From contig RFZL01000028.1 of assembly GCA_009920665.1 (NCBI GenBank), positions 1 through 32,175 of the forward strand: a stretch of 32,175 bases of DNA, in the 5' to 3' direction. The translations under genes were made by a program, and so were the position numbers. The first letter of the stretch is position 1. Each line of letters starts with the position of its first letter. Under the pieces are notes generated by a model. It was not told the DNA's origin, did no database searches, and saw only the letters and a list, made by a program, of their open reading frames with translations. This stretch comes from Alphaproteobacteria bacterium (GTDB lineage: Bacteria > Pseudomonadota > Alphaproteobacteria > Puniceispirillales > Puniceispirillaceae). Shown here piece by piece: positions 3,820 to 31,280 of the stretch.

Positions 3820-3882
3820 GATCCAGCCTTCCCATGCTGGCAAACCGCCCTTCCATCTGCACGAACAGGAAATTGCGGCGCG

Positions 3883-4596: not shown

Positions 4597-4612
4597 CACG
4601 CACTCTCGCCCC

Positions 4613-7524: not shown

Positions 7525-7575
7525 AGAGAACCACCAACAAGCAGATTGCGACGTAGGGGAATCCAGAAAATAAAA

Positions 7576-7603: not shown

Positions 7604-7635
7604 AACAATCCATGATTATGATTGTCCTGGGAGGG

Positions 7636-8682: not shown

Positions 8683-8712
8683 GATTTTCCTCCGACTTTT
8701 TAGGTTATCAAA

Positions 8713-8741: not shown

Positions 8742-8765
8742 CGGATTTTAGAACCTACCGGGTCA

Positions 8766-10052: not shown

Positions 10053-10101
10053 CTCACGCCCCCACAAAAATCCCCAAAATGACCCCTGGAATGACCAACC
10101 A

Positions 10102-10656: not shown

Positions 10657-10683
10657 GACCGCACCTACCCCCCTGGTCTGGCA

Positions 10684-13807: not shown

Positions 13808-14842
13808 ATGAAGAGCGAGGCCATCGTGACATCACAATCGGACCACAAGCTGGTTACCATACGCGACGTTGCCAGGCTTGCCGGCGTCTCGCCGATTACC
13901 GCCTCGCGCGCGCTGAACAAATCGCATCTGGTAAAGCCGGAAACACGACAGAAGGTCGAGGCTGCGGCAGCCGAATTGAAATTCATCGGCAACAGTGCGG
14001 CAGGCAGCCTGTCAAACAAGCGCAGCAACATGGTGGGCATTATCGTGCCGACCCTGTCCAATTCGATCTTTGCAGACACGATCCAGTCAATCACCAGTCG
14101 TCTGATGCCCGAGGGCTTTCAGGCGTTGATTGGCAGCAATGAATATTGCTTGCAACGCGAAGAGGATATCATTCGGACATTTATCTCGCATCGTGCTGAT
14201 GCGCTGATACTCACCGGCCATACCCATACCAAGGTGGCCGAGGAATTGATCGGGCAATATCGCATACCTACGGTTGAAATCTGGAACATTTCGGAACAGA
14301 GCAACCATATCTGTGTGGGCATGTCGAATTTTCAGGCCGCATTTGAAATGACTTCATTCCTGATTAGCTGCGGTTACAAGAAAATTGGCTATATCGGCGG
14401 CATTCTGAAGAATAACGACAGATCACAAGACCGCATGCGCGGTTACAGGGAGGCTCTTGAAAAGCATGGTGTGCCTTTTGATCCTGCATTAACACGCGAG
14501 TCCGTTTATGAATTCGCCAGTGGCGCCACCGCGATGCAAAGTCTTCTGACCAAGAGCCAAGGCATTGATTGTGTCTTTGCATCGTCGGACATCATCGCCT
14601 TCGGGGCGCTGATGGAATGCCACCGCAACGATATCAAGATACCGCAAGACATCGCCCTTGCCGGCTTCGACAACACCACCATCGGCGCCCTCTACAAGCC
14701 GGCCCTGACAACAATATCAGTCCCGCGACAGCGCATCGGCCTGAAAGCCGCTGAGATCACATTGCAGTTGATCAAGGGCGAAAACGACATTCAGAAGGTC
14801 AATGATCTGGGGTTTGATCTGAAGGTTCGCGGCACTACCTGA
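13808..14842 (+). CDS. LacI-family regulator, GntR/IdnR-like
   Basis: A 344-residue transcription factor. The helix-turn-helix is at 16-36 (VTIRDVARLAGVSPITASRAL), followed by the hinge and a periplasmic-binding-type effector domain. Recalled E. coli GntR shares several blocks: LILT.HTHT, VG.SNFQAA.EMT, and the DLGF.L..RGT tail. The effector may therefore be gluconate-like or another sugar acid. Three near-identical palindromes upstream of its neighbours are its likely operators. Start: ATG 13808 is taken; GTG 13826 has a better-spaced GAGG site and is a real alternative. The gene follows the GMC gene after 189 bases. No clear operator of this type precedes it, so autoregulation is not evident. 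Confidence 0.92.
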   Translation: MKSEAIVTSQSDHKLVTIRDVARLAGVSPITASRALNKSHLVKPETRQKVEAAAAELKFIGNSAAGSLSNKRSNMVGIIVPTLSNSIFADTIQSITSRLMPEGFQALIGSNEYCLQREEDIIRTFISHRADALILTGHTHTKVAEELIGQYRIPTVEIWNISEQSNHICVGMSNFQAAFEMTSFLISCGYKKIGYIGGILKNNDRSQDRMRGYREALEKHGVPFDPALTRESVYEFASGATAMQSLLTKSQGIDCVFASSDIIAFGALMECHRNDIKIPQDIALAGFDNTTIGALYKPALTTISVPRQRIGLKAAEITLQLIKGENDIQKVNDLGFDLKVRGTT

Positions 14843-14875
14843 CCGGCGGCCAATCGTTGATCTGGTGATTGCCGG
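14843..14875 (+). terminator. Weak hairpin after the LacI gene
   Basis: CCGGC (14843-14847) pairs with GCCGG (14871-14875), and AATC (14852-14855) pairs with GATT (14867-14870), leaving a 4-base bulge. It starts directly after the stop codon. There is no T run, so it is only a possible 3'-end structure. Confidence 0.25.
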
Positions 14876-14992
14876 CGGGGTGAACGGCTTGTCACCATAG
14901 GCAATCCTCGCCCGCTACCACGTCCCATGTCTGCCGCTCATTCAACATATCTGACGACCCTGTCTCGGCATGAGGTCACCTGGAAAATGGAC

Positions 14993-15020
14993 TTGCATTG
15001 ATTAATGATACCGATATCAT
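14993..15020 (+). promoter_or_regulatory. Candidate promoter of the transketolase operon
   Basis: TTGCAT (14993-14998) and TATCAT (15015-15020) are 16 bases apart. The operator palindrome covers the -10. The transketolase start follows at 15113, leaving a leader of roughly 85 bases. Apart from this and operator O3, the 270-base gap 14843-15112 shows only the weak hairpin after the regulator. Confidence 0.45.
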
Positions 15021-15021
15021 T
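15004..15021. promoter_or_regulatory. LacI-family operator O3 (transketolase operon)
   Basis: AATGATACCGATATCATT has perfect 7-base arms around CCGA. Its reverse complement matches O1 and O2 at 17 of 18 bases. Its position on the transketolase promoter ties the plus-strand operon to the TRAP/dehydratase genes under one regulator. Confidence 0.8.
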
Positions 15022-15112
15022 CAGGTGTCCTGTGGTGAGGCAAACACGAACAAAGCAGGCTCCCGCGTCACATTTCGGCGCATGTGGCTCAGATGCAAAA
15101 GGGCAATCTCGA

Positions 15113-15949
15113 ATGCAGACCGGTAACCGAAGAAGCCTGAAAGAGCTCAGAGACACAGCCACAACGATCCGCAAGGATGTGATCCGCATGGTTGCCCGCC
15201 ATGGCCAGGGCTATGTCCAGCAAGGCCTCGGGGCGGCCGATCTTTTCACCTATCTATACTTCCAGGAACTGCGATTTGACACGGCGAACCTCAACTGGGC
15301 CGACCGTGACAGATTCATTCTGTCAACGGCGCATAACACAGCTGTCTATTACGCCACCCTTGCCAGAGCAGGATTGCTGGATCCAGCAACACTTACCGAA
15401 TATTGCCTTGACGGCTCACCATTGGAGATCAATGCCTCCGAACGGCTGGGGCCGCTGGTCGAATGCACCTGCGGCTCGCTCGGTCAGGGCCTGTCGGTTG
15501 CCGCCGGGCTGGCCATGGGAAGCCAGCGCCAACAGCGGGATGCAAATATCTATCTGATGCTCGGTGACGGTGAACTCGAGGAAGGACAGGTGTGGGAAGC
15601 TGCGATGTTCGCGGCCACGCACAAGCTGTCAAACCTCACCATGATCATCGATCTCAACTATATGCAGGTTGAAGGAGACGCGCGTGAGGTTGCCGCCATC
15701 GATCCGGTTGATGCAAAACTGGAGAATTTCGGCTGGCAGACCATAATGATCGACGGACATGATTTCGATGCGATGTTTGCCAGCTTTGCGGCGGCAAGGG
15801 CCGATACCGATCGACCATCCTGCATCATTGCCAACACAATCCCCGGCAAGGGCGTGTCCTTCCTTGAAGGACAGAAGAGCCACAACATGGTTCTGCCGGA
15901 AAACACTGCCGATGATGCTCTGCAATGGCTGGAGGCGGATCATGGCTGA
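15113..15949 (+). CDS. Transketolase, N-terminal subunit
   Basis: A 278-residue ThDP-binding half of a two-gene transketolase. GDGELEEGQVWEA (151-163) and Asn182 form the diphosphate/metal motif; GSLGQGLSVAAGLA (121-134) is the family block preceding it. The usual GHxGGSLS segment near the N-terminus reads GYVQQGLG here (33-40), with Tyr for His, hinting at a non-standard donor or acceptor. Its partner is encoded in the next, overlapping gene. Split transketolases occur in catabolic clusters, for example for apulose-4-phosphate and in the sulfoglycolytic transketolase route. ATG 15113 is the first in-frame ATG giving a family-like start (GNRRSLKELRDTATTIRKDV); the ribosome site (AAGGG) is somewhat distant. 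Confidence 0.88.
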   Translation: MQTGNRRSLKELRDTATTIRKDVIRMVARHGQGYVQQGLGAADLFTYLYFQELRFDTANLNWADRDRFILSTAHNTAVYYATLARAGLLDPATLTEYCLDGSPLEINASERLGPLVECTCGSLGQGLSVAAGLAMGSQRQQRDANIYLMLGDGELEEGQVWEAAMFAATHKLSNLTMIIDLNYMQVEGDAREVAAIDPVDAKLENFGWQTIMIDGHDFDAMFASFAAARADTDRPSCIIANTIPGKGVSFLEGQKSHNMVLPENTADDALQWLEADHG

Positions 15950-16949
15950 AACCGATGACAGGCCACTCAAATCTGACACCCTTCATCTTGATGATTTCTC
16001 GGTCAAGCAACAGCCCAATCATCAGACAGTGCCGAAATATTATGGCGAGGCGCTTCTTGCCGCCGCCCGTGTTGACACATCGATTCTGGCACTCACCGCT
16101 GATTTGACGGCACCAACGGAAACCGACCTTGTGCGTGACCATTTGCCTGACCAGTTTGTCATGGCCGGCATTGCCGAGGCGAATATGGTTGGCGTGGGTG
16201 CCGGCCTTGCCCGAGCCGGCTTCATCCCCTTTGTCCACTCCTTTTCGGTGTTCCTGTCGCGGCGCAGTTTTGACCAGATCGCGATGCAGATTGCCTATCC
16301 AAAGACCAATGTAAAGCTGGTTGGTTTCATGCCTGGAATCGACTCATTGCTTGGCGTTTCACACCAGGCGATCGACGATATCGCCCTAATGCGCGCGTTG
16401 CCAAACATGACAATATTGGAGCCGGCCAGCCCGGCAGATTACGAGGATGCCGTGGCAGCGGCGTTGGCGCATGAGGGGCCGGTATATCTGCGCCTGTATC
16501 GGGCAACAGCGCCAGCGACGCCTCTGAATGACGTGCCCCCGCTACAAGCTGGCAGGATCAGGTGCCTGCATCACGGCAATGACGCGGCAATCTTTGCCAC
16601 CGGCCTGATGGTGGAACAGGCGTTGCTCGCCGCCGAAGATCTGAAGACACAATCTATCAATGCATCGGTTATCGATTGTGCCAGCATCAAACCGCTTGAT
16701 GTCGAGGGCATTCTCGACGTCATCAGCCAAAGCAAAATCATTGTCACCGCAGAAAACCACACAGTCATCGGCGGTCTTGGGTCAGCAATCGCAGAAATCA
16801 TGGCTGGCAACAATATCGCACGGCCATTTTTTCGTATCGGCGTTCAGGATTGTTTCGCCGAGGGCGGCAGCCGATCATTCTTGTTTGGCAAATATGGCCT
16901 GTCGGCAAAGGATATCGCTGCCGCCATCAAACAGGGGCTGGCATCGTGA
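15942..16949 (+). CDS. Transketolase, C-terminal subunit
   Basis: A 335-residue protein carrying the Pyr domain and C-terminal domain of transketolase. The cofactor-activating Glu79 lies in AGIAEANMVGVGAGLA. SFSVFLSRRSFDQI and VGFMPGIDSLLGVSHQAIDDIALMRALPN follow family order, and TAENHTVIGGLGSAIAE marks the C-terminal domain. It completes the active site with the preceding subunit. The ATG overlaps the N-subunit stop by eight bases and has a perfect GGAGG site 6 bases upstream. It should move two-carbon ketol units between a pathway ketose and an aldose phosphate. Confidence 0.9.
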   Translation: MAETDDRPLKSDTLHLDDFSVKQQPNHQTVPKYYGEALLAAARVDTSILALTADLTAPTETDLVRDHLPDQFVMAGIAEANMVGVGAGLARAGFIPFVHSFSVFLSRRSFDQIAMQIAYPKTNVKLVGFMPGIDSLLGVSHQAIDDIALMRALPNMTILEPASPADYEDAVAAALAHEGPVYLRLYRATAPATPLNDVPPLQAGRIRCLHHGNDAAIFATGLMVEQALLAAEDLKTQSINASVIDCASIKPLDVEGILDVISQSKIIVTAENHTVIGGLGSAIAEIMAGNNIARPFFRIGVQDCFAEGGSRSFLFGKYGLSAKDIAAAIKQGLAS

Positions 16950-19655: not shown

Positions 19656-20741
19656 TCAGATCCTCAGGCCGGTTTTCAGGTCAAAATAATGCAATCGATC
19701 CGCGCGAATGTGGAATTTGACCGTCTCGCCGGGCTGAAAGCGCCTTTCGCCCTCATACTTGCCGACAATTTCGCCAAAGCCGGCATCGCAGGTGAGGACG
19801 GTTTCATGCCCCATCGGTTCCACCACCGTGATCGAGCCAGCTATCGAAACATGCCCCCTTGCGGGTTTTGCCGTATCCGCCAGTTCCATATGTTCGGGCC
19901 GGAATCCGAGCTGCACCATGGTCCCTTCCGCAACACCGCAACCGGCAAGATCAAGGCTGGTGCCGCTGTCGGTCCTGAGGCTCATTGTCTTGCCGCTGGC
20001 CTCGATACGCCCGGTCGCGAAATTCATCGCCGGCGAACCGATAAAACTCGCGACGAACTGGCTTGCCGGGTGTTTGTAGACCTCGTCGGGCGTGCCTACC
20101 TGCTCGATATGGCCTTCATTCATGATGACGATCCGGTCCGCCAGCGTCATCGCCTCCACCTGGTCATGGGTCACATAGACGGTGGTTGTCTGCACCCGCT
20201 GATGCAAAATTTTCATTTCGGCACGCATCTTGTGGCGTAGCTTGGCATCAAGATTCGACAGCGGCTCGTCAAACAGGAACACCTTGGGTTTGCGGACGAT
20301 CGCCCGCCCCATGGCAACGCGCTGTTTCTGACCTCCCGACAATTCGCCGGGACGTCTTTTCAGCAAGTCGCCAAGCCCCAGTATCTCGGCGGCTTCATTC
20401 GTTCGTTTGGCGATTTCGTCCTTTGGCAGACGCTTGGCGCGAAGACCAAAGGAGATGTTGTCAAACACGTTCAAATGCGGATAGAGCGCATAGTTCTGAA
20501 AGACCATCGCGATATCGCGGTCCTTCGGATGGACATTGTTGACAGCCCGGCCATCGATCGAGATCGATCCCGAGGTTACATCCTCCAGACCGGCAAGCAT
20601 GCGCAGCGTTGTCGACTTGCCACACCCCGACGGGCCGACAAACACGACAAACTCGCTGCTGCCGATTGACAGGTTGAAATCCTCAACCGCGACCACGGAT
20701 CCGAACAGCTTGTGCACCCCCTCAAGCCTGACCTCTGCCAT
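19656..20741 (-). CDS. Sugar ABC transporter ATPase, MalK/UgpC type
   Basis: A 361-residue nucleotide-binding subunit. Walker A GPSGCGKST (36-44), Q-loop FQNYALYPH, signature LSGGQ (134-138), Walker B VFLFDEP (154-160) and the switch His in VTHDQ are all intact. The C-terminal ~120 residues form the MalK-type regulatory OB domain (GFRPEHM, RADRLHYFD). It powers the importer whose permeases and binding protein are encoded upstream. It starts 3 bases after the lyase stop, so the lyase is firmly within this operon. Confidence 0.92.
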   Translation of the reverse strand: MAEVRLEGVHKLFGSVVAVEDFNLSIGSSEFVVFVGPSGCGKSTTLRMLAGLEDVTSGSISIDGRAVNNVHPKDRDIAMVFQNYALYPHLNVFDNISFGLRAKRLPKDEIAKRTNEAAEILGLGDLLKRRPGELSGGQKQRVAMGRAIVRKPKVFLFDEPLSNLDAKLRHKMRAEMKILHQRVQTTTVYVTHDQVEAMTLADRIVIMNEGHIEQVGTPDEVYKHPASQFVASFIGSPAMNFATGRIEASGKTMSLRTDSGTSLDLAGCGVAEGTMVQLGFRPEHMELADTAKPARGHVSIAGSITVVEPMGHETVLTCDAGFGEIVGKYEGERRFQPGETVKFHIRADRLHYFDLKTGLRI

Positions 20742-20744
20742 CTT

Positions 20745-22244
20745 TCAACCCTCCCCCGCGATCAATTCCGCCACCCGTCGGGCGCGCTGTTCATCAGCCT
20801 GTGAAATCCGCCTGCGTATCTCGCCGACTTCTGTTTTCAGAACTGCCAGCCGTTCGGCATAACCGGCCAGAGACTGTTGCAACGCCGCCGGCCCCGGTCC
20901 GCCCGGCAGCTCGCGGACCGCGACAAAATTCCGCGGGCTTGTCGCCAGCGTCAGCAGGTCTGCGTCCATCCCGGGCTTTCGCCCGGTGACCTCCTCAAAG
21001 GTGCGGGCGAACAGGTCCCACGGCAATTCATCGAATGCCATGTCGCTGGACAGGGCCTCGCGGGCCAGCTTGCTGGCAACATGATGCGCTTCCCTGAAGC
21101 CTATCTTTTCAACCCTGACGATGGTGTCTGCCAGCTCCGTAATGGTGGCCATTGATTTCTGGATCCGCCGGTTGATCGAGGGCTGGTTGGTCTTCATCGC
21201 CTCCACAAAACCACCCAACAGAGGAAGGGCTTGGTCAAGTCGGTCAAATACATTGAACCCGGTCGCCTGCGTTTCGCGCTCCGAATCATTCATATCGGCA
21301 AAAGGTGTGTTGTGCATGGTCTGCACGATCTGGTCCGCGCCGCCGCCGGCAAGTGACAGTTTCAGGCGCAGATGCTCCAGCGGCACCGGGTTGCGCTTCT
21401 GCGGCATGATCGAGGAAATCTGGACAAACCCGTCAGCCACATCAATCTGTGACACCTCAAACCCGGTCCAGGTCACCAGATCCTGCACCAGACGGCCAAG
21501 ATGGATGCATCCAAGCCGGATCGTCGCATAGCTCGCGGTGATATAATCGACATTGGCGATGGCCCCGTAGGAATTCTCGACAATTCCCGGGAAGCCAAGC
21601 AGTTCGGCGACGCGATGCCGGTCGAGATCAAAGCCGGAGGTGGTGATCGCCGCAGCGCCCATCGGGCAGAGATTGACCTCTTCCAGCGCCGCGTGAAGCC
21701 TGGTCATGTCCCGCAGGATGAATTCGATCGCCGCGCCAAGATAATGCCCGAGAACCGAGACCTGGGCCGGCTGCCCGTGGGTATAGAGCAACACCGTTTC
21801 GTCAATGCCGCTCTCGGCGCGGGCCAGAAACTGGTCCGCCATCACCGCATAACGCTCAAGCAGACCGAGAAGCCGGTCGCGAAGCTGCATCCGGAACATG
21901 GTGTGCTCCATGTCATTTCGCGAGCGCCCCATATGCAGCCTGCCGGCCATATCCTCTCCCGCCTGCCGGCCAAGCTCCTGCTCGATCAGAAAGAAGAGAT
22001 CCTCGAAACTGCCGTCAAACGGCCGGTCTGCCCATGGGCGTGTCTGATCGATATTGATCAGGGCCTCGAGAATGGCGGATGCATCGCCACCCGCAAGCAA
22101 TCCCCTTTCGGCCAGCATCACACCATGCGACAGATTGATGGCGTGAAGCGGTGCCGAAAAATACTGCCTGTAGATATCGAGATCCGGCGCAAGCACGCTT
22201 TGCGCGTAGACCTGGGCGGGGAAGGTATCATAGTCGGAACCCAT
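20745..22244 (-). CDS. Argininosuccinate lyase-like enzyme in the ABC operon
   Basis: A 499-residue member of the fumarase/aspartase superfamily, closest in pattern to argininosuccinate lyase. Visible are GRSRND (106-111), YTHGQPAQ (154-161; the lyase norm is YTHLQ.AQP) and the flexible signature loop SSIMPQKRNP (277-286) with the catalytic Ser. The C-terminal ~50 residues look like a coiled coil. The family eliminates fumarate or an analogue from C-N bonded adducts; EDDS lyase is a catabolic relative. It sits between permease and ATPase genes, 6 and 3 bases from its neighbours. It therefore probably cleaves the imported compound rather than making arginine. I do not call it argH for that reason. 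Confidence 0.82.
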   Translation of the reverse strand: MGSDYDTFPAQVYAQSVLAPDLDIYRQYFSAPLHAINLSHGVMLAERGLLAGGDASAILEALINIDQTRPWADRPFDGSFEDLFFLIEQELGRQAGEDMAGRLHMGRSRNDMEHTMFRMQLRDRLLGLLERYAVMADQFLARAESGIDETVLLYTHGQPAQVSVLGHYLGAAIEFILRDMTRLHAALEEVNLCPMGAAAITTSGFDLDRHRVAELLGFPGIVENSYGAIANVDYITASYATIRLGCIHLGRLVQDLVTWTGFEVSQIDVADGFVQISSIMPQKRNPVPLEHLRLKLSLAGGGADQIVQTMHNTPFADMNDSERETQATGFNVFDRLDQALPLLGGFVEAMKTNQPSINRRIQKSMATITELADTIVRVEKIGFREAHHVASKLAREALSSDMAFDELPWDLFARTFEEVTGRKPGMDADLLTLATSPRNFVAVRELPGGPGPAALQQSLAGYAERLAVLKTEVGEIRRRISQADEQRARRVAELIAGEG

Positions 22245-22250
22245 CTCAAC

Positions 22251-23099
22251 TCATCCCTTCAAGCCAGCGAGCATGATCCCGCGAATAATGAATTTCTGCA
22301 GCAGCAGGAACACCAGCAGCGTCGGCAGGGTGGCGAGACAGGACGCTGTCATGACAATTTCCCAGTCCATCTGGAATTCACCGTTGAATGAGGCGATCCC
22401 GACGGGAATCGTATAGATATCGGGGTCGTTGGTGACGATCAGCGGCCAGATGAATGCTGTCCAGTTGCCCAGAAAATGGAAGATCGCGAGAGCCGACAAC
22501 GCCGGAATGACAAGCGGCATCGCAATCCGCCACCAGATGGCGAATTCAGACCAGCCATCGATGCGCGCCGCCTCGATAAGCTCATCGGGAAGACTCATGA
22601 AGAACTGCCGCATCAGGAATGTGCCGAAGCCGGTCATCAACCCGGGGAAGGCAATGCCCCAATAGGTATCGATCCAGCCAAAGCTTCGCGACATCATATA
22701 CCAGGGAATGATCAGCATTTCGGTCGGAATCATCAAGGTGCTGAGGATAGCGATGAAGACGATCTGGCGGCCGCGAAAATCGAACTTCGCCAGCGTGTAG
22801 CCGACCAGCGAGTCGAAAAAAAGCACCGAGGCCGTGCTGAAGGTGGCCACCCACAACGAATTCAGCATCCACCGCATGAATTTAGATTCCTGCAGGATAA
22901 ATACATAGTTTTCCAGCGTCGGCCGGTCAGGAATCACACTGAGCTCGAAAACTTCCTGGCCCGTCTTGAACGAGGTGGACGCCATGAACACGATCGGGGT
23001 AATCATCACCACCCCGCCGAGGAACAGCAGGGTCCAGAGGATGACCTTGCCGGGTCGCGCGCGTTCGAGGCGCGCCATCGTCGCGTTGAGATCGCTCAT
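22251..23099 (-). CDS. Sugar ABC transporter permease (MalG type)
   Basis: A 282-residue inner-membrane permease with six predicted helices. The EAA loop EAARIDGWSEFAIWWRIAMP contacts the ATPase. The N-terminal SFKTGQEVF periplasmic region and the C-terminal FIIRGIMLAGLKG tail are typical of MalG-type CUT1 permeases. Its ATG overlaps the previous permease stop by four bases (ATGA). Confidence 0.92.
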   Translation of the reverse strand: MSDLNATMARLERARPGKVILWTLLFLGGVVMITPIVFMASTSFKTGQEVFELSVIPDRPTLENYVFILQESKFMRWMLNSLWVATFSTASVLFFDSLVGYTLAKFDFRGRQIVFIAILSTLMIPTEMLIIPWYMMSRSFGWIDTYWGIAFPGLMTGFGTFLMRQFFMSLPDELIEAARIDGWSEFAIWWRIAMPLVIPALSALAIFHFLGNWTAFIWPLIVTNDPDIYTIPVGIASFNGEFQMDWEIVMTASCLATLPTLLVFLLLQKFIIRGIMLAGLKG

Positions 23100-23995
23100 T
23101 TGTGTTTCCGCATGAGCCAGAGTTGAACAAGGCTGACAACAAGCAGGATCATGAACAGAATCACGGTCAGTGCGGAGGCCCGCCCAAGCTTGAACTCATC
23201 GAAGGCGAATTCATAGATCATCAGCACCAGCGGCTTGGTGGAATTGAGCGGCCCGCCTGCGCTGTCGGCGCTCATCGTATAGACCTGGTCGAAGATCCGA
23301 AGAAAGCCGATGGTCGATACCACGGTCAGAAAGATCATCGTCGGCTTCAGCGCCGGCAGGGTGATTTCACGCAGGATCTGCCAGCGGCCGGCGCCATCGA
23401 TCTCCGCGGCCTCGAAATAGCTTCTGGGTATCGCCCTGATGCCGGCAATGAAAATGACGATCTGGAAACCGAGTCCGGCCCATACAGCGGGTGCCATGAT
23501 GGCATAGAGCGCCTGGGTGACCGATTTCAGAAAGGGTTGCTGAGGAATGCCCATCCAGGACAGCATGATGTTGAAATATCCGATAGGAAGCGGTTGATAG
23601 AACCATCGCCATACCCAGGCCATCGCCACCGCGGTGGTCAGGAACGGGATGAAATACATGGCCCGGATCATGTCATGTCCGAAATGAATTTCATTCAGCC
23701 AATAGGCGATGACGAAGGCGATCAGCATGCTGACAGGCACCCCGACAAGCGCGTATTTGATGGTGTTCCAGAGAACCAGCCAGAAATCCTCATCCGCGAA
23801 GATCTTGATATAGTTCTTGAAACCGATGGCCTTTTTCGCCCCCAGCAGGTTCCATTTCAGGGTTGATACGTAAAATGCCTCAAAAGTCGGATAGAAGCGG
23901 ATCGTGATATAGAAGACCAGAGGGATCGCCAGAAAAAGCCAGGCTGTGATGGCCAGTTTCTGCCCGATGGTCAGTCTATTCCAGAAATCGGTCAT
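23096..23995 (-). CDS. Sugar ABC transporter permease (MalF type)
   Basis: A 299-residue inner-membrane permease. It has a long periplasmic loop after the first helix (FYPTFEAFYVSTLKWN) and the EAA motif FEAAEIDGAGRWQILREITLP. It pairs with the MalG-type permease encoded next. The 82-base gap from the binding-protein gene contains a 10-bp hairpin, which probably lowers its expression relative to the binding protein. Confidence 0.92.
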   Translation of the reverse strand: MTDFWNRLTIGQKLAITAWLFLAIPLVFYITIRFYPTFEAFYVSTLKWNLLGAKKAIGFKNYIKIFADEDFWLVLWNTIKYALVGVPVSMLIAFVIAYWLNEIHFGHDMIRAMYFIPFLTTAVAMAWVWRWFYQPLPIGYFNIMLSWMGIPQQPFLKSVTQALYAIMAPAVWAGLGFQIVIFIAGIRAIPRSYFEAAEIDGAGRWQILREITLPALKPTMIFLTVVSTIGFLRIFDQVYTMSADSAGGPLNSTKPLVLMIYEFAFDEFKLGRASALTVILFMILLVVSLVQLWLMRKHK

Positions 23996-24027
23996 GAATT
24001 CGATTTCGCCTCACCGCAGGAAAATCG

Positions 24028-24056
24028 GCAGATGGCAACGGAATGCTGCCATCTGC
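24028..24056 (-). terminator. Attenuator-like hairpin between binding protein and permease genes
   Basis: GCAGATGGCA (24028-24037) and TGCCATCTGC (24047-24056) form a perfect 10-bp stem with a 9-base loop. On the minus strand GATTTTCC follows, giving a short T run. Such hairpins behind binding-protein genes stop part of the transcription or protect the upstream message. Confidence 0.6.
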
Positions 24057-24077
24057 GCGGGGTTCGGGTGATCATCC

Positions 24078-25331
24078 TCAGTTGTCGAAGAACTCGTCAA
24101 AGACCTCCTGCTCGGCCTTTGCGACTTTTTTCAGCGCGGCCGCAGGATCGGCACCTTGCAGAACAACCATGTCATAGGCGTCGATCAGCGACTGCCGCTG
24201 CGGCTTCTCGGATACGAAAGCCGTCGCATTGGCATAGCTGAGGCCGCGGATGAACGGTCCGTAGAGCGGGTGTGTCTTGTTGGCATCGACGAGCGCCACC
24301 GCAGGCTTGGCCGGCAATTCGCCAACCGTATCGAGCCACAGCTGCATTGCCTCGTCCGAAGTCAGATATTGCAGGAACTTTTCTGCCGCGGCCTTTTTCT
24401 CGCCCTCTGCTTTCGAGCTGATGCCGTTCACCCAGTAGGAAGAGAAATTATAGCGGTTGCCATTATGTCCCGGCAGTTCCGAAATGGCGAAGTTCAGGCC
24501 CTCCTGCTTGACGAATTTCGAAATCCTGAAGGAGCCGTCAAGAACCATGCCGGCCTTGCCGGCGGCAAAGGCATCCTGGCCCCGGTTCATGAAGCCGTTG
24601 GCGCCGACCTTGTGAACCGCCTCGAAATCGGTGACGAACTTCAGCGCCTTGGCGCCAGCGTCGGATGTGTAGGCGACCGTCTTGCCGTCATCGGAATATG
24701 GCTGGCCACCATAGAGCCTGATGAGAACCTCGCGCCACCAATGGTGGTCCTGACCATCCGTATCCACGGCGAAACCGACACTCAGATAGTTGCCATCGGC
24801 ATCCTTCTTGGTCAGCTTCCTGGCGTAATCAACCATCTCGTCCAGCGTTTCGGGCGGACCCGACAATCCTGCTTCGGCAAACATGTCCTTGTTCCAGAAC
24901 AGCGCCAGCGAGCGCACCGCCGTCGGAAGGCCCCAATATTCGCCATCAACCTTCATGGTGCCGACCATCGGGAAGAAATCCTTTTCGATGGTAGCATGAG
25001 GAAAGGCCGAACTGGACAGTGGCTGGATTAGGCCACCTTCGCGATAGTCATTCAGCCAGCCGTAATAAAGCTGCACGACATCGGGCCCATCACCCGCAGA
25101 CACCGCAATGGCGACCTTCTTGCGATAGTCGGCATATGGGAAGTGCGTGTGCTTCACGGTGACGCCGGGATTGGCTGCCTCAAAATTCTGGATAAGCTTG
25201 TCAATCGCCTCCACCCGGCTTGCATAGGTATATTGCCAGTACTCGATCTCGACGGCCTGAACCATCCCGCTCCACAAGAGCGATGTTCCACCGATGGCCA
25301 AGGCGAAAGCTGATTTCAACCACTTCTTCAT
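24078..25331 (-). CDS. Sugar ABC transporter substrate-binding protein
   Basis: A 417-residue MalE/UgpB-type (family 1) binding protein. The signal peptide is MKKWLKSAFALAIGG onward, with cleavage likely after VQA (residue 26). YWQYTYASRVEAIDKLIQNFEAANPGV opens the mature protein; AGDGPDVVQLYY and VDGEYWGLPTAVRSLALFWNKD are family blocks. ATG 25331 is preferred over 25343 because GGAGGGA lies just before it. The promoter side carries two palindromes likely bound by the divergent GntR regulator. The ligand is probably a carbohydrate or amino-sugar conjugate. Confidence 0.92.
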   Translation of the reverse strand: MKKWLKSAFALAIGGTSLLWSGMVQAVEIEYWQYTYASRVEAIDKLIQNFEAANPGVTVKHTHFPYADYRKKVAIAVSAGDGPDVVQLYYGWLNDYREGGLIQPLSSSAFPHATIEKDFFPMVGTMKVDGEYWGLPTAVRSLALFWNKDMFAEAGLSGPPETLDEMVDYARKLTKKDADGNYLSVGFAVDTDGQDHHWWREVLIRLYGGQPYSDDGKTVAYTSDAGAKALKFVTDFEAVHKVGANGFMNRGQDAFAAGKAGMVLDGSFRISKFVKQEGLNFAISELPGHNGNRYNFSSYWVNGISSKAEGEKKAAAEKFLQYLTSDEAMQLWLDTVGELPAKPAVALVDANKTHPLYGPFIRGLSYANATAFVSEKPQRQSLIDAYDMVVLQGADPAAALKKVAKAEQEVFDEFFDN

Positions 25332-25359
25332 GCGTCCCTCCATTGCGATGTCATTGATG

Positions 25360-25375
25360 AAAGGTATTTACCTTT
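25360..25375. promoter_or_regulatory. Candidate GntR/HutC-type operator 1
   Basis: AAAGGTATTTACCTTT is a perfect 7-2-7 inverted repeat, 29 bases upstream of the binding-protein start. The GGT....ACC core fits operators of HutC-subfamily GntR proteins. The regulator gene lies divergently downstream. Confidence 0.65.
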
Positions 25376-25379
25376 TCTA

Positions 25380-25391
25380 AGGTAAAAACCT
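25380..25391. promoter_or_regulatory. Candidate GntR/HutC-type operator 2
   Basis: AGGTAAAAACCT has the same GGTA..ACC core as operator 1, with centres 18 bases apart. On the minus strand it follows a perfect TTGACA box (25416-25411), placing it at or just after the start of transcription of the ABC operon. No good -10 box is visible. Confidence 0.5.
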
Positions 25392-25462
25392 ATGATAACA
25401 ATTTCAGGGTTGTCAAAGGAAAAGCGGAAGGGCGCCACCACAACCGGCGTCGGGCGATCGCC

Positions 25463-25560
25463 CCGGACATGAAACGCCGGACATGAAACGCCGGACATGA
25501 AACGCCGGACATGAAACGCCGGACATGAAACGCGGGACATGAAACGCGGGGCACAAAACG
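25463..25560 (+). repeat. 14-bp tandem repeat, seven copies
   Basis: CCGGACATGAAACG is repeated head to tail: five perfect copies (25463-25532), one with a single change (25533-25546) and one degenerate copy (25547-25560). It fills the middle of the 319-base gap between the binding-protein and regulator genes. The period is not a multiple of three and no plausible gene uses it. It may be a binding array, a replication-slippage product or a mobile minisatellite. Confidence 0.9.
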
Positions 25561-25650
25561 TGACGGGATCATTTTTGGCAGAATTGTCGCTGGCAAAATC
25601 AATGCTGCAAGGATCACCGGCCGCAAGGATCACTGATTGGGTTATCGAAC

Positions 25651-26385
25651 TTGGAAACACGCTACGCCACGCTTTCGAACCAGTTGACCAAGAGAATTGG
25701 AACAGGCGAATACCCGGTTGGCGACTATCTGCCGAGCGAGAAACAGCTGGCCAGCGAATTCGGAGTCAGCCGGCCTACCGTGCGCCGTGCGCTGGAATAT
25801 GTCGAGGCGTTGGGGCTCATCTCCAGGCGCCGTGGCGATGGCACCAAGGTACTGGCACGCAAGCCTTTCACTGATTATCGCTATACCACCCGTCCCGTTG
25901 ACGATCTGTTATATGGTCGGGGGGCCGAGCGCATTGTCACCGGCATCAATGAAGTTGTATGCGATGAATTGCTTGCCGACCGGCTCAAATCCGCGCCGGG
26001 GAAAAGCTGGGTCCACATTTCACAGCATCGCAATGACCTCGCAACAGGTGACATGCTGGTCTGGGGCGATGTCTATATCGACAGCAAGTTCGGCAGTATT
26101 GCCCCGCGCCTGGCCGATTATCCCGGATTCATCTGCGACCTGATCGAGGAAGAATACGGCATCGCGGTCAGCGAAATTCATCAGGAGATCAGACCGGTTG
26201 CGATCACAGCCGCAATCTGTCAGGCGATGAAACTGCCACAGGGTTCTCTTGGTCTCGAGATGACGCGCCGGTATCTGAACAATCAGAAGCAGCCCGTGGA
26301 AGTGTCCATCAACATCTTTCCCGAGGCGCGGTCTGTCTACAGCATCACTTTGAACCGTACACAGGAGCGGGGTAGCACTCGATGA
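25651..26385 (+). CDS. GntR-family regulator, HutC/UTRA type
   Basis: A 244-residue regulator. The winged helix covers residues 5-67 (YPVGDYLPSEKQLASEFGVS, then RPTVRRALEYVEALGLISRRRGDGT). The C-terminal UTRA ligand domain covers about 85-240, with YIDSKFGSI and the LEMTRRYLNNQKQPVEVSIN block. HutC-type members sense sugars or amino-sugar phosphates and related molecules. The start is TTG 25651: the frame is open back to a stop at 25561 but has no ATG, and the family normally begins about here. It is the first gene of an operon with the deacetylase (ATGA overlap) and likely controls both divergent transcripts. Confidence 0.85.
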   Translation: METRYATLSNQLTKRIGTGEYPVGDYLPSEKQLASEFGVSRPTVRRALEYVEALGLISRRRGDGTKVLARKPFTDYRYTTRPVDDLLYGRGAERIVTGINEVVCDELLADRLKSAPGKSWVHISQHRNDLATGDMLVWGDVYIDSKFGSIAPRLADYPGFICDLIEEEYGIAVSEIHQEIRPVAITAAICQAMKLPQGSLGLEMTRRYLNNQKQPVEVSINIFPEARSVYSITLNRTQERGSTR

Positions 26386-28808
26386 AAAAGGACTTCATCA
26401 TCAGGCAGGAACAGCGCCAGCCACTCCAGCAGCTCTATATGTGGCTGAAATCCCTGCAGTCCACGGTGATCTTCATGCAAACCGGCGCCCATCCCGATGA
26501 TGAAACATCGCGGATGCTGGCCCGCCTGTCACTTGGTGACGGCATGCATGTTGTCTATGTGAACGCGGTACGGGGGCAGGGTGGACAGAACGCGCTGGGA
26601 CCCGAACGGGGCAATGCGCTGGGATATCTGCGGACCGAGGAGCTGTTTGAGGCGATGCGGGTGATCAGGGCCGATATCGGATGGCTTGCCGAAACGCCGG
26701 ACGACCCCATTCGCGACTTTGGATTCTCGAAGTCGGCTGAACAGACCTTCGACCATTGGGGGCGCGACCACACGCTGCGGCAGATGGTCAAAATGGTCCG
26801 TCTGTTCAGGCCGGACATTCTGATCCCCACCTTTCTGGATGTTCCCGGGCAACATGGCCATCACCGGGCCGTCACGCAGGCAACCATCGCCGCCTTTGAC
26901 GAAGCGGCCAATGAGACGGCGTATAGCGATCTCGGGCTTGCCGGCTGGCAGGCCAATGCGCTGTATCTGCCAGCCTGGGGTGGCGGTGGCGGATCCTATG
27001 ATGACGAGGTTCCTCCACCGAATGCGACGCATGAAATCCTGACCGGTGCGTATGATGCCGTTCTGGGGGGAACCTACGCCCAAATCGGCGAATGGTCGCG
27101 CGCCTGTCACGCCACCCAGGGCATGGGAAGATATGTTGATGAGGAGGAACGTCCGGTTCCCCTTCACCAGCTGCGCACGGCAAATGGCGAGGCCGTTCTG
27201 CCCGAACTGACCGAGGGCGTTCCCCGCAACCTTGCCGACCTTGCCGGCCAGTGCCGGGACAGCAGCAGTCACGAGGCCGCCATACTGGCGCAGCAGGCTG
27301 CCGATGATGCCCTTGCCGCCTTCCCCGATGGCAAGGCTGTGCTGTCGGCGCTGTGCCGTTTGCAGGCTGCTCTGCTGAAACTCGAGACAGGCATCGGGGC
27401 AGCACATCTTCACCGCGTCCATCTGAAAAAGCGCCAGGCGGCGATGGCCGCCAGCCAGGCGGCCGCCCTCCAACTCCACCTTGAAATCACACCATCAGTG
27501 CCGGTGGTCGGACAGACAGCCGAGGCGCGGCTGAGCTGGCATGTTGCCGATCCTGCCGACACCCCGACAATCTCGGCACAGCTGGTTGGTCCGGAACAGC
27601 TTGGCTGCGGGGATCTGACCGACACGGGGAACGGTGAGCGCCGTCGGTCAATGACCGCCGATCTGACCATTTCGGGCCCGCCACTTGATGCCATGATGGG
27701 CTGGCATGGCGTGATGATCAGCCCACCCACCCTTCATGCCGAGGTCAGCCTGAAAATTGCTGACACCGAATTTGTTCTGCCGGTGAGCCCGGACACTGTC
27801 TTTTCAACGATGCCGGGCCAGACGGGACGGATCACGCCTGCCAGGACGTTGCTACGCCGCGGAAAGGACACAAGCCTCGACATGCAGCTGCAGCTGGATG
27901 CGCCCGCGAATCCGGGCCAGGCATCCCGGCTGGCTCTGCCACCAGAGTGGGAGTTCGATGCCGGGGCGGACGAAACATCGGGAACCAAGATGTCAGGGCG
28001 GCTGAAGGTTCCCCCTTCGGCACGGCAGGGTCATTACCGGATCAGGGCAAGCGTCGGTGAAGACGAGGTGTTCACAACGCAGAGCCTTGCCTATGCGCAT
28101 ATACGGCCGCAAACGCGCTGCTCGACAGCGATATCCGATATCGCGCTGGTGGACACGGCAGGGCTGGAGGGGCTGTCCATTGGCTGGATCGATGGCGGTG
28201 TCGACGAGGCGCATCACTGGGCTGGCCAGCTTGGCGCCCATATCGTCCAGCTTGATGACAATCGTCTGCTTTCCGGCAGTTTCGAGGATCTTGATGTCAT
28301 TGTCGCCGGGGTGTTCGCCGGCGGAACAAGGCCACTGAACCGGTCGATGCGCCATATCAGGCCCTGGATCGAGGCCGGCGGGCATTATGTCAGCCAGTAT
28401 CACCGCCCGATCGACAACTGGGACAGGACACAGAGCGCACCACTGCCGCTGCAACCGGGAAGCCCGTCAATCCGCTGGCGCGTCACCGATGCCACCGCCA
28501 CCGTGCGCATGCTGCAACCGGCGCATCCGCTGCTTGCCGGCCCCAACGAGATCACCGGCGCGGATTTTGACGGCTGGGTCAAGGAACGCGGGCTGTATTT
28601 TGCCTCGGAATGGGATCCTGCCTATGTCCCGCTACTGGCAATGGCGGATGGCGACGAGACACCGCTTGAAGGCAGTCTTCTTGTCGCTCGGATCGGGTCC
28701 GGATCCCATATCCATTGTGCCCTGAACCTTTTCTATCAGATGGATCATATGGTGATCGGTGCGTTTCGCCTGTTTGCCAACCTTCTGACACCCGTCGACC
28801 GGAAATGA
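26382..28808 (+). CDS. PIG-L/LmbE-family deacetylase, long multidomain form
   Basis: An 808-residue protein. Residues 1 to ~290 are a PIG-L deacetylase domain: the zinc-binding AHPDDE (36-41) and HGHH (158-161) are intact. The middle region (about 360-590) looks beta-rich and immunoglobulin-like (LEITPSVPVVGQTAEARLSW). The last ~200 residues (GGHYVSQYHRPIDNWD, then GWVKERGLYFASEWD) resemble the glutamine-amidotransferase-like tail of other long PIG-L proteins. The family removes N-acyl groups from amino sugars. No signal peptide is seen, so it should act in the cytoplasm on imported material. It overlaps the regulator and exporter genes by four bases each. Confidence 0.85.
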   Translation: MKKDFIIRQEQRQPLQQLYMWLKSLQSTVIFMQTGAHPDDETSRMLARLSLGDGMHVVYVNAVRGQGGQNALGPERGNALGYLRTEELFEAMRVIRADIGWLAETPDDPIRDFGFSKSAEQTFDHWGRDHTLRQMVKMVRLFRPDILIPTFLDVPGQHGHHRAVTQATIAAFDEAANETAYSDLGLAGWQANALYLPAWGGGGGSYDDEVPPPNATHEILTGAYDAVLGGTYAQIGEWSRACHATQGMGRYVDEEERPVPLHQLRTANGEAVLPELTEGVPRNLADLAGQCRDSSSHEAAILAQQAADDALAAFPDGKAVLSALCRLQAALLKLETGIGAAHLHRVHLKKRQAAMAASQAAALQLHLEITPSVPVVGQTAEARLSWHVADPADTPTISAQLVGPEQLGCGDLTDTGNGERRRSMTADLTISGPPLDAMMGWHGVMISPPTLHAEVSLKIADTEFVLPVSPDTVFSTMPGQTGRITPARTLLRRGKDTSLDMQLQLDAPANPGQASRLALPPEWEFDAGADETSGTKMSGRLKVPPSARQGHYRIRASVGEDEVFTTQSLAYAHIRPQTRCSTAISDIALVDTAGLEGLSIGWIDGGVDEAHHWAGQLGAHIVQLDDNRLLSGSFEDLDVIVAGVFAGGTRPLNRSMRHIRPWIEAGGHYVSQYHRPIDNWDRTQSAPLPLQPGSPSIRWRVTDATATVRMLQPAHPLLAGPNEITGADFDGWVKERGLYFASEWDPAYVPLLAMADGDETPLEGSLLVARIGSGSHIHCALNLFYQMDHMVIGAFRLFANLLTPVDRK

Positions 28809-29686
28809 GCGCTTCATCATCCGACAATCTGGGTGGTCTTCGCTTTCTGGTACTGAATGAGGTTTTCACCCTCAGTCATCTTGTCCTGGTCAAGATGCTC
28901 GGCATTGAATTCTCGTCTGTTCAGATTGTCTTCATACGCTGTCTGAGCAGCGCCATGCTGCTGGTGCCGTTGCTGGTCTGGAAAGGGGCGTTTGCGGATG
29001 TCAGGACACAGCTTGGCCTGAACGGCCTTCGTGTCCTGCTCTCATCGGTGGCGATCACTGTCAATTTCTTTACGATCTCGCAGATCCAGCTGGCGCAGAT
29101 GAGCACCATCGGATATCTGCGGCCTGCCGTGACCTCGCTGATTGCCTATTTCTTCCTGAAGGAAAGCCAGACCTGGCATCGATGGCTGGTTATCGTGATC
29201 GGCTTTTCCGCCGTGCTGTTTATCTTCTCGCCTGAGGAAAGCCACCTTCAGATTGTCGCGTTGCTGGCCCTTTGCGGCATGTGTTGCGGCAGCTCGGCAA
29301 CCATCCTGCAGAAATATCTGTCACGGGACATGTCCGACCTGCCGCTGATGGTCTGGTATTCCGTCGGCGTCGCCATCGTCACCGCCCCGTTCGCCATCTG
29401 GTTCTGGGCGACGCCGGCCCCGCAGGAACTGCTCATGATGGTGATGACCGGCCTTCTGGCGACAATGGCGCAGTTCTTCTTCATCCGGGCGTTTCGCAAA
29501 GCAGACGCCAGTTTCCTCGCGCCCATGTTCTATTTCCACATCGTGCCGACCACACTGATCGGTTTCTTTGTGTTTTCCGAGGTGCCTTCACTCAACACCA
29601 TCCTGGGCGCATTGATCATTCTTGCCAGCCTTATCGGCATGACCCTCCTCGAACGCAGGAGGTCGCCTAACAATGCCTCCATGTAG
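28805..29686 (+). CDS. EamA/DMT-family transporter
   Basis: A 293-residue membrane protein with ten predicted helices in two EamA repeats, the second starting near residue 150. FIRCLSSAMLLVPL, STIGYLRPAVTSLIAYFFLKE and FIRAFRKADASFLAPMFYFHIV are typical. The family moves amino acids, nucleosides and other metabolites. ATG 28805 overlaps the deacetylase stop (ATGA). It may export a by-product or import the substrate of the PIG-L pathway. Confidence 0.87.
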   Translation: MSASSSDNLGGLRFLVLNEVFTLSHLVLVKMLGIEFSSVQIVFIRCLSSAMLLVPLLVWKGAFADVRTQLGLNGLRVLLSSVAITVNFFTISQIQLAQMSTIGYLRPAVTSLIAYFFLKESQTWHRWLVIVIGFSAVLFIFSPEESHLQIVALLALCGMCCGSSATILQKYLSRDMSDLPLMVWYSVGVAIVTAPFAIWFWATPAPQELLMMVMTGLLATMAQFFFIRAFRKADASFLAPMFYFHIVPTTLIGFFVFSEVPSLNTILGALIILASLIGMTLLERRRSPNNASM

Positions 29687-29703: not shown

Positions 29704-29794
29704 CGCCCGGGCTGGCGGACGCCACGACTTGTGGCCGGGTCGTGGCCGGGTCATGGCCGCCATATTTTTTCCGAGTACAGAATGGGAGCTTTTC

Positions 29795-30235
29795 ATGCGC
29801 TATCTTCACACAATGGTCCGTATTTCCGACGTCGACGCCTCGCTGCATTTCTATTGCGATCTGCTGGGCCTTGAACTCATCAGGACGATAGAGAACGAAA
29901 AGGGGCGCTTCACCATTTATTTCCTGTGCACCCCGCATGACAGGGCAAGCTATGAGGAGACACGTTCACCCGCACTTGAACTGACCTATAACTGGGACCC
30001 TGAAGACTATGCCGGTGGCCGGAATTTCGGCCATCTCGCCTATCGCGTTGATGATATCTACGGCTTGTGTGAAAAGCTGATGGATGCCGGGGTGACCATC
30101 AACAGGCCGCCCCGCGACGGCAACATGGCCTTTGTCCGGTCGCCGGACGGCATATCCATCGAACTGCTACAGGAGGGCGAACCGCTGGCCCCGGCCGAGC
30201 CCTGGCAATCTATGGGCAATACAGGAAGCTGGTAA
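29795..30235 (+). CDS. gloA: Lactoylglutathione lyase (glyoxalase I)
   Basis: A 146-residue VOC-superfamily protein matching glyoxalase I. The four metal ligands are in place: His5 (LHTMVRI), Glu62 (LELTYNW), His80 (FGHLAYRVDD) and Glu123 (GISIELLQ). NEKGRFTIYFL and the LTYNWDPEDYAGGRNFGHLA block are diagnostic. It isomerises the methylglyoxal-glutathione hemithioacetal to S-lactoylglutathione in the cytoplasm. GGGAG lies 6 bases before the chosen ATG, which rules out the longer upstream frame. Confidence 0.93.
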   Translation: MRYLHTMVRISDVDASLHFYCDLLGLELIRTIENEKGRFTIYFLCTPHDRASYEETRSPALELTYNWDPEDYAGGRNFGHLAYRVDDIYGLCEKLMDAGVTINRPPRDGNMAFVRSPDGISIELLQEGEPLAPAEPWQSMGNTGSW

Positions 30236-30302: not shown

Positions 30303-31280
30303 CTATCTCAGCAACATGCGATGGGCCAGATGCGGATTGGCAAATGCCGCCCGCGCGCCCTTCAGCCCCGCATCCGGATCCGTTGCCATCCACACCGGAA
30401 CTCTGGCCAAAACAGATGTCATCTCGCCAGCGGAGCGGAAGCGCTGCTCAAAAGGGCTGCTGGCGATCAGGGGTGTCAGACGAGGCATGATGCCACCTGC
30501 AATCACTGCCCCGCCCCAGCAGCCCATGGTAAGCACATGATCCGCCATTACCGCGCCCAGAATGCCTATCATCATATTTACCGCATCTCGACAGATGCCT
30601 TCCTCACGCAGGGCGGAAGCGGCGATAATTTCGGCGGATAGTGACGATTCAGCACCCGCCGCATCAGCCAGAAAGCTATAGATGTTTTCCAGCCCCGGGC
30701 CGCTGACAAAATGCTCAACCACCACATGGTCGGCCTGTCGTTCCATATATGCGCAAAGATCTCGTTCAGGATCGGTCTGTGGCGCAAAACGAATATTGCC
30801 GCCCTCACCCTCGATCGGCAACGCTCCCTGGCCGAGCGGAAACAGAGCTGACACGCCAAGCCCCGTCCCAGGCCCGATGACAAGAAGCGGCGCGCTGGCA
30901 TCCGCAATGCCGTCAAGAAGCCGCACCCGACCCTCCTTGTTGATATCGTGCTGGGCCAGCGCCTGGGCGGTGAAGTCATTGATCACGAGCAGTCCATCCA
31001 GCCGCAACCGATCCAGAAGCTGCTCCTTTCCAAACTGCCAGGGGTTGTTGGAAACCTTGACGATCCGGTCATTCACCGGACCGGCCACAGCCAGGCTCAA
31101 CTTATGATTGTCATTTCGCTCATCAACGGGCAGCCGGGCCATAAAGCCTTCAAAAGCATCTTGGAAACTTTCGAAATCCGCACATCGCAGATAGGTAACG
31201 TGGCGCAGCGACGGATCACCCTGACTTGACAACGCAAATCTGGCATTCGTACCGCCAACATCGGCCAGGATGATACCCAT
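30303..31280 (-). CDS. glk: Glucokinase, Glk family
   Basis: A 325-residue hexokinase-fold sugar kinase of the proteobacterial Glk family (E. coli 321). ADVGGTNARFALS (6-18) is the ATP phosphate-1 motif, Asp102 in INDFTAQAL the catalytic base, GPGTGLGVS the phosphate-2 motif, and EGEGGNIRFAP binds sugar. It phosphorylates glucose to glucose-6-phosphate in the cytoplasm. The start at 31280 matches the family N-terminus; an AAGG about 12 bases upstream is a poor ribosome site. It is convergent with gloA and appears monocistronic. Confidence 0.92.
   Translation of the reverse strand: MGIILADVGGTNARFALSSQGDPSLRHVTYLRCADFESFQDAFEGFMARLPVDERNDNHKLSLAVAGPVNDRIVKVSNNPWQFGKEQLLDRLRLDGLLVINDFTAQALAQHDINKEGRVRLLDGIADASAPLLVIGPGTGLGVSALFPLGQGALPIEGEGGNIRFAPQTDPERDLCAYMERQADHVVVEHFVSGPGLENIYSFLADAAGAESSLSAEIIAASALREEGICRDAVNMMIGILGAVMADHVLTMGCWGGAVIAGGIMPRLTPLIASSPFEQRFRSAGEMTSVLARVPVWMATDPDAGLKGARAAFANPHLAHRMLLR

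Follow-up and report, generated by a model that had tools for sequence, protein, structure and literature searches.

A sugar-importer cassette encoding an argininosuccinate-lyase-superfamily enzyme and a PIG-L protein: probable amino-sugar conjugate catabolism, with bacillithiol as a tentative substrate

PIG-L/LmbE metalloenzymes such as Bca, Mca, BshB and MshB are known for chemistry on N-acyl-glucosamine; according to a review of 2014, every LmbE-like enzyme known at that time has a substrate built on an N-acetyl- or N-acyl-glucosamine core, bacillithiol conjugates in the case of Bca (PMC4101496). The argininosuccinate lyase (ASL)/fumarase superfamily contains ArgH and EDDS lyase (PDB 6g3d-6g3i and 6rx8), and the catabolism of glucosamine and N-acetylglucosamine (GlcNAc) involves ROK regulators, kinases and NagB or NagB-II deaminases. 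An ASL-superfamily lyase and a PIG-L protein are encoded together with a sugar importer in a 32,175-nucleotide stretch of an alphaproteobacterial genome of the Puniceispirillaceae (contig RFZL01000028.1; genome of 2.69 Mb in 214 contigs), the whole of which we call the window. We consider it likely that this cassette imports an N-acyl amino sugar and, by means of a fumarate-type lyase, yields glucosamine. More tentatively, it would be an accessory gene set for the catabolism of an N-acylated glucosaminyl-malate, with bacillithiol, its N-methyl form, a conjugate or a disulfide as the likeliest candidates. The genes concerned are the following:

19656-20741, minus strand: UgpC/MalK-type ABC ATPase (NCBIfam PRK11650, 482.4 bits, cut-off 432; PF00005, OB_MalK, TOBE_2)
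20745-22244, minus strand: ASL-superfamily lyase, 499 amino acids (PF00206, PF14698)
21267-21314, minus strand: lyase residues 311-326, HNTPFADMNDSERETQ, clade motif HNxPFxDxND (alignment of 45 clade and 6 outgroup rows)
22251-23099, minus strand: CUT1 permease, MalG/UgpE type (PF00528; PRK10973, 140 bits, below its cut-off)
23096-23995, minus strand: CUT1 permease, MalF/UgpA type (PF00528; PRK10561, 99.5 bits, below its cut-off)
24078-25343, minus strand: sugar-type extracellular solute-binding protein (SBP; PF13416, PF01547)
25651-26385, plus strand: GntR-UTRA (HutC-type) regulator (PF00392, PF07702)
26382-28808, plus strand: 808-amino-acid PIG-L protein (PF02585, 59.3 bits, cut-off 28.2)
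28805-29686, plus strand: EamA/DMT-type exporter (PF00892; probable ATG at 28805, longest open reading frame from 28715)
30303-31280, minus strand: glucokinase-family hexokinase, candidate sugar kinase of the locus (PF02685, 293 bits)

Open reading frame coordinates and domain scans place the genes for the SBP, both permeases, the lyase and the ATPase in one minus-strand operon (25343-19656), with the families expected of a CUT1 sugar ABC importer (SBP_bac_1/8, two BPD_transp_1 permeases and a MalK/UgpC-type ATPase). A first, sequence-only reading of this DNA had put the lyase between a permease and the ATPase with gaps of 6 and 3 bases, and the PIG-L protein in a divergent operon; the coordinates agree on both counts. 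The GntR-UTRA, PIG-L and EamA genes follow one another on the plus strand, the first two overlapping by 4 bases and the probable EamA start overlapping the PIG-L stop, and the glucokinase-family gene converges on the far side of this group, where a GloA-like gene follows EamA.

Against the ArgH model TIGR00838 the window lyase scores 268.2 bits (268.1 in the genome search), below the curated cut-off of 279.5, whereas a separate and clear ArgH in the same genome scores 590.1 bits. The window protein is therefore not ArgH, and this identity, with a role in arginine biosynthesis, was rejected; nor is it the sole argH of its genome, a circumstance that the sequence-only reading had raised against itself. 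The superfamily hallmarks are present (Thr-His and an SSxMPxK loop with Lys and Asn), and the catalytic residues hold across the clade described below, T155 in 44 of 45 rows and H156, S277, S278, K283 and N285 in every one. The lyase thus has the succinyl-side catalytic residues in common with ArgH, but the segment that we take to bind the arginine part there (through Tyr, Gln and Lys) is replaced: Y, Q and K of the genome's ArgH align with D317, E322 and Q326, and the ArgH-type set is absent. Within the motif, D317 is found in 45 of the 45 rows, N319 in 44 and D320 in 44 (one X), while E322 is kept in 38 (Gly in 7) and Q326 in 41. The acidic residues of this segment would suit a cationic amino sugar.

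The best NCBIfam model for the lyase is PRK06705 (298.5 bits), and XcbC, a relative that eliminates phosphate by a C-O cut, gives 194.5 bits; the cut-offs are 883 and 575, of which both scores fall far short. Among solved structures, EDDS lyase is closest by sequence (7.8e-52, the PDB entries being labelled argininosuccinate lyase there) and by fold (7.3e-23, with 27% identity in the fold alignment; entries titled EDDS lyase). It resembles the window lyase in superfamily, length and fold, but the window clade is set apart by HNxPFxDxND and by its sugar-importer operon with PIG-L and kinase. In the structure models, for which 13 lyase and 10 PIG-L rows served as input, confidence is low in parts of the active sites; the lyase model has a mean predicted local distance difference test score (pLDDT) of 78.9, with active-site loops below 50.

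A maximum-likelihood tree of 51 rows, after removal of ten duplicate or near-duplicate ones from the alignment, gathers 38 proteobacterial and seven Deinococcus lyases in one clade (support 99/95). ArgH and the Cereibacter, Cupriavidus, Geminicoccaceae and A. vitis copies fall outside it, and the Natribaculum copy (L061; L numbers are our locus handles), which has part of the motif (H311, N312, F315, D317, D320, E322), adjoins it; the branching order beyond the clade is unsure because long branches meet there, as the program warned, and EDDS lyase is not among the rows. The nearest named records belong to Rhodobiaceae, the SAR116 cluster, Rhodobacteraceae, Paracoccaceae and Alphaproteobacteria, with one labelled Deltaproteobacteria. 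Paralogues of about 33% identity in Cereibacter (L063, 1-8528) and Cupriavidus (L064, 2266-8427) lie near asparaginase genes, the former also with amino-acid ABC, MmgE/PrpD and SIS genes; these two loci are candidates for the use of aspartate-derived compounds.

The 808-amino-acid protein, the only PIG-L match in its genome, consists of a PIG-L/LmbE domain (about 27-271), an Ig-like region (365-591) and a C-terminal domain (about 597-808) that we take to be GATase/ThuA-like. It keeps the AHPDDE and HxxH motifs of PIG-L/LmbE metalloenzymes; in an alignment of 31 long PIG-L proteins HPDDE is present in 30 and HPDDD in the remaining one (L060), HxxH being found in all 31, and the long proteins of L065 and L066, outside these rows, also read HPDDD. 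A phmmer search of the whole protein against PDB sequences gave no match at E 0.1, and its structure model (mean pLDDT 74.1, parts of the PIG-L domain below 50) matches LnmX (Z 15.3), BC1534 (14.6), Bacillus subtilis BshB (14.5), MshB (13.9) and diacetylchitobiose deacetylases (about 14). Fold and metal motif are thus those of Bca, Mca, BshB and MshB, from which the window protein differs in its length and extra domains, in its uptake operon and in belonging to a genome without BshC.

In Deinococcus two forms occur. Long PIG-L proteins are encoded in L060 (9479-11707), L065 (9863-12118) and L066 (9854-12118), each locus also having a second, short PIG-L. The short forms give 145-161 bits with the MshB model (cut-off 224), and that of D. 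deserti gives 145 bits with MshB, 106 with Mca and 81 with BshB2.

Among 385 genomes of the class to which the window belongs, 12 carry the lyase (E <= 1e-80) and ten the long PIG-L protein (E <= 1e-40), all ten of them lyase carriers, so that the conserved co-occurrence which the sequence-only reading had asked about is found. The association is beyond chance (hypergeometric value 3.8e-18, a statistic that ignores relatedness), and in nine of the ten genomes both genes lie near each other on one contig, the exception (G095) having them on two. The two other carriers are G284, which is 70% complete and lacks any PIG-L match, and G289, in which two short PIG-L matches lie on contigs other than that of the lyase. 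The cluster is accessory: the lyase occurs in 6 of the 61 genomes of the window's own family, all six in its own genus, and a phylum search recovered it in 6 of 398 genomes (E <= 1e-70), all six in the window's class. Among 27 plasmid records with a close lyase (at least 43% identity, H1-H27), 21 also hold a long PIG-L and are the 21 best records of the long PIG-L search. The remaining six come from Roseomonas, Terrarubrum, Bosea, Paroceanicella and Shinella (two), and no PIG-L was found near the lyase in these genera or in three Deinococcus loci; for D. psychrotolerans there is a PIG-L match on another plasmid (H71), which is also the match for the genome of L062. The gene order of the window is repeated in Roseinatronobacter, Aminobacter, Qingshengfaniella, Thalassospira, Rhizobium, Loktanella and Parasedimentitalea, but differs in Deinococcus; the D. 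deserti locus comprises a ROK regulator, the lyase, an SBP, two permeases, one short PIG-L and a kinase.

Neighbourhoods were compared in 45 hand-picked loci, which are not independent (L016/L017 and L020-L023 are near relatives), with neighbours called by BLAST to seed proteins at 1e-10 within a 10-kb limit of our own choice. Of 279 plasmid records found, 24 were opened, and L065 and L066 entered via the PIG-L search. Contig ends cut L012, L014, L018 and L073, and L082 and L083, from one genome, are counted once; outside the 45 stand L010/L005 (G054, a 3.9-kb contig with lyase and ATPase only), L101-L104, the paralogues L061, L063, L064, L069 and L070, and short loci from genomes already included. 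CUT1 genes lie within 10 kb of the lyase in 42 loci, Deinococcus included, and the refuting condition set by the sequence-only reading, that lyase and transporter show no conserved association, does not hold. PIG-L is present in 34 loci (33 within 10 kb, one on another contig) and EamA in 16. Where CUT1 genes are missing (L075, L080, L081), lyase and PIG-L remain side by side; these are three of the four f57 genomes, the fourth (L072) having CUT1 genes. In L075 and L080, the two of these three loci that were scanned, the pair is flanked by SBP_bac_5 binding proteins.

A sugar kinase (Glk, ROK or PfkB) accompanies the lyase in 25 of the 45 loci, a NagB or NagB-II deaminase in 10, and either in 28; one kinase and one deaminase count come via another contig, L083. 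In SAR116-type loci the kinase is Glk (Glk-family matches are also found in L011, L013, L015, L020-L023, L083 and L084), in some others PfkB and in others a ROK protein. Paroceanicella has a ROK kinase and nagB (242 bits, cut-off 237) after the ATPase, Roseomonas a ROK kinase followed by NagB-II (313 bits against a cut-off of 430), Loktanella a nagB beyond PIG-L, and in L076 NagB-II adjoins the binding protein. NagB-family proteins also stand between EamA and GloA in L011, L013 and L015 and after the ATPase in L016 and L017, the matches in L011, L013 and L016 being below the TIGR00502 cut-off (100-120 of 236.9 bits). None of 17 genomes has more than two TIGR00502 matches, so that chance is an improbable explanation of this linkage. 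In the window genome (G000) and in G056 (L084) the cluster is without NagB, which is encoded elsewhere in the genome. No gene annotated as NagA was found in the 24 opened regions. The linked kinases and deaminases indicate that the product of lyase and PIG-L is most likely free glucosamine, a view well supported by context. The PIG-L of genome G095, on a contig apart from its lyase (L083, 1-10529), is found near Glk, a MurQ-type etherase (352 bits) and a NagB-II-like gene, that is, in an amino-sugar region.

The cassette variants share ROK regulators, kinases and NagB/NagB-II with glucosamine and GlcNAc catabolism but differ in that the amide would be removed by PIG-L from an unphosphorylated compound and a lyase step is added. 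The idea that import, N-deacylation and a fumarate-type lyase act on one substrate, put forward in the sequence-only reading, is right in outline and agrees with the context; its N-succinyl or N-carboxyalkyl glycan cut at a C-N bond was changed, and C-N cleavage is kept as a rival below; the linked kinases and NagB/NagB-II point to free glucosamine. Beyond that reading, we define how far the cassette extends, trace it to Deinococcus, and propose glucosamine as product and bacillithiol as substrate.

An amidase, a fumarate-forming lyase and a glucosamine kinase, with no need for a glycosidase, read as a substrate of the form acyl-NH-glucosamine-malate. Bacillithiol is Cys-GlcN-O-L-malate (GlcN, glucosamine) and, to our knowledge, the natural product that joins an N-acyl glucosamine to a succinyl skeleton; as it is a malyl glycoside, the bond cut would be C-O, and elimination of an L-malyl ether has the same stereochemistry as the fumarase and ArgH substrates. 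One study is said to suggest that it may be the most widespread bacterial thiol. We therefore propose, with rather less than even confidence, that bacillithiol serves as a nutrient with a dedicated uptake and breakdown cassette in which an ASL-superfamily enzyme removes the aglycone of a glycoside as fumarate. The substrate would be released by other, bacillithiol-making bacteria and imported by the SBP, the two permeases and the UgpC-type ATPase, whose families are clear. PIG-L would then act like Mca, Bca and BshB and hydrolyse the amide at the 2-amino group of glucosamine (the family is established, the substrate putative), giving cysteine or a conjugate plus glucosaminyl-malate. From the latter the lyase would take the malyl C3 proton and expel the sugar, the presumed leaving group, from C2 as free glucosamine, leaving fumarate and thereby doing the work of a glycosidase, since the sugar linkage would be split without one. 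A hexokinase (Glk here, ROK or PfkB elsewhere) would form glucosamine-6-phosphate for deamination by NagB or NagB-II; the genes for this step are linked in some relatives, and nagB is unlinked in the window genome. EamA may export cysteine or the conjugate, and control would be exerted by GntR-UTRA here and by ROK proteins in many others.

In the biosynthetic route, BshA makes GlcNAc-malate, BshB deacetylates it and BshC adds cysteine, and bacillithiol derivatives are widespread, the marine Polaribacter MED152 making N-methyl-bacillithiol (PMC6282198). BshC was found in none of 17 lyase-bearing genomes (some incomplete), compared with 3 of 14 controls, and in none of 21 in a search of relatives; bacillithiol biosynthesis was rejected as the role of the cluster for this reason, and the carriers would be consumers. 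Within the collection of papers searched, none described such a cluster or the breakdown of bacillithiol, nor did any give the residues with which ArgH binds arginine, and PMC12719100, in the part consulted, mentions thiol degradation in general terms only.

Several observations weigh against this proposal. Every step rests on family and context, and we know of no superfamily member that eliminates a glycoside. The PIG-L fold is shared by GalB (Z 13.8), a hydratase that acts on no amino sugar, and hence does not by itself fix the substrate, and the window protein falls far short of the cut-offs for Mca (36.8 of 277 bits), MshB (24.5 of 224) and BshB. No PIG-L was found in 11 of the 45 loci (L018, at a contig end, L025, L029, L055-L057, L062, L068, L071, L076 and L077), and in 17 both kinase and NagB are missing. 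EamA proteins form a very broad family, and the one linked gene that bears a cysteine dioxygenase annotation (L024) matched no NCBIfam model; both fit a cysteine by-product weakly. The long PIG-L proteins of Deinococcus carry NEW3 and CBM9 domains and, in three of three, signal-peptide-like starts (two as annotated, L065 from an upstream start), features that would be superfluous in a cytosolic amidase acting on a small thiol and would suit a larger substrate outside the cell. In L074 a TonB-dependent receptor gene (14736-16883) lies directly downstream of PIG-L.

The Deinococcus domains and starts, the TonB receptor, and the Ig-like and C-terminal domains of the window protein, which have no place in the bacillithiol scheme, would be accommodated by another N-acyl-glucosamine glycoside or oligosaccharide, deacylated by PIG-L, from which the lyase removes a dicarboxylic ether or a comparable group by elimination. 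We regard such a substrate, with no bacillithiol involved, as rather unlikely, considering that no glycoside hydrolase was found among the ten window proteins scanned for domains and that the D. deserti locus shows only a short PIG-L. Closest to the idea of the sequence-only reading is an amino sugar with a 1,2-dicarboxyethyl (aspartate-derived) nitrogen, for instance one formed from aspartate by a Heyns or Amadori reaction, or a conjugate of such a compound, from which PIG-L would remove an acyl group and the lyase, by a C-N cut, would release fumarate and glucosamine. It explains the lyase, the kinase, NagB and the glucosamine product equally well, the nearest solved relatives ArgH and EDDS lyase cut C-N bonds (as is known for the family), and two of the PfkB kinases resemble fructoselysine 6-kinase (64.7 and 58.2 bits, cut-off 247). 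However, a simple Heyns product, having no amide, would leave the conserved PIG-L without a clear role, and we know of no abundant natural product of this kind; we judge it unlikely.

A further reading, in which the lyase breaks down a chelator or metallophore based on aspartate (such as EDDS or iminodisuccinate) while PIG-L and kinase have another purpose, seems decidedly improbable. The closeness of EDDS lyase in sequence and fold speaks for it, as does the Cereibacter paralogue (33%) with its asparaginase, amino-acid ABC and MmgE/PrpD neighbours, but this paralogue and that of Cupriavidus lie outside the window clade (in a tree with long outgroup branches and without EDDS lyase), and a chelator would not account for CUT1 transport, ROK regulators, sugar kinases or NagB. 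Least credible, to the point that we give it hardly any weight, is a second argininosuccinate lyase for arginine synthesis: the argH annotation of many records is set against the clear 590-bit ArgH elsewhere in the genome, the sub-threshold 268 bits of the window protein, the divergent segment 311-326 and the context of transporter and amidase.

A cassette common to Alphaproteobacteria and Deinococcus, the lyase of which frequently carries an arginine-biosynthesis annotation, would thus find its place in the catabolism of amino-sugar conjugates. If the substrate is bacillithiol, the cassette would provide a route for recycling a very common thiol, link the scavenging of carbon, nitrogen and sulfur, and add glycoside elimination to the fumarase/ASL superfamily. 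The proposal makes a sharp prediction, namely GlcN-malate in, fumarate and glucosamine out.

The divergent promoter region and the gene following EamA contain two further features:

25360-25375, no strand assigned: inverted repeat AAAGGTATTTACCTTT, likely operator, upstream of the SBP gene
29729-30235, following EamA: GloA-like VOC gene (118.1 bits, cut-off 120)

All six intergenic regions that were compared, those of the window and of five relatives, contain a match to AAGGT-N(3-5)-ACC, in agreement with a shared operator. The regulator slot is held by GntR-UTRA in the window and by ROK regulators in many other lineages. Six copies of a 14-bp tandem repeat, CCGGACATGAAACG, occupy 25463-25547, in a segment of the promoter region that has no counterpart in the five relatives. 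The VOC gene was considered as a FosB-like bacillithiol transferase, but the Fos models gave 20-22 bits and no support. Rfam (gathering cut-off) and tRNA scans of the window were empty.

Elsewhere in the window, a separate catabolic region (299-11931) encodes a LacD/DeoC-type aldolase, a PfkB kinase and a thiamine pyrophosphate enzyme, which we take to be an iolJ/iolC/iolD-like trio, together with three short-chain dehydrogenases/reductases, an altronate/galactarate dehydratase-like protein, a TRAP transporter and an MR/MLE enzyme; it may degrade a cyclitol or a sugar acid. Between 15005 and 16949 lies a split transketolase, one half N-terminal and the other comprising the pyrimidine and C-terminal parts, next to a 3-hydroxyisobutyrate-type dehydrogenase.

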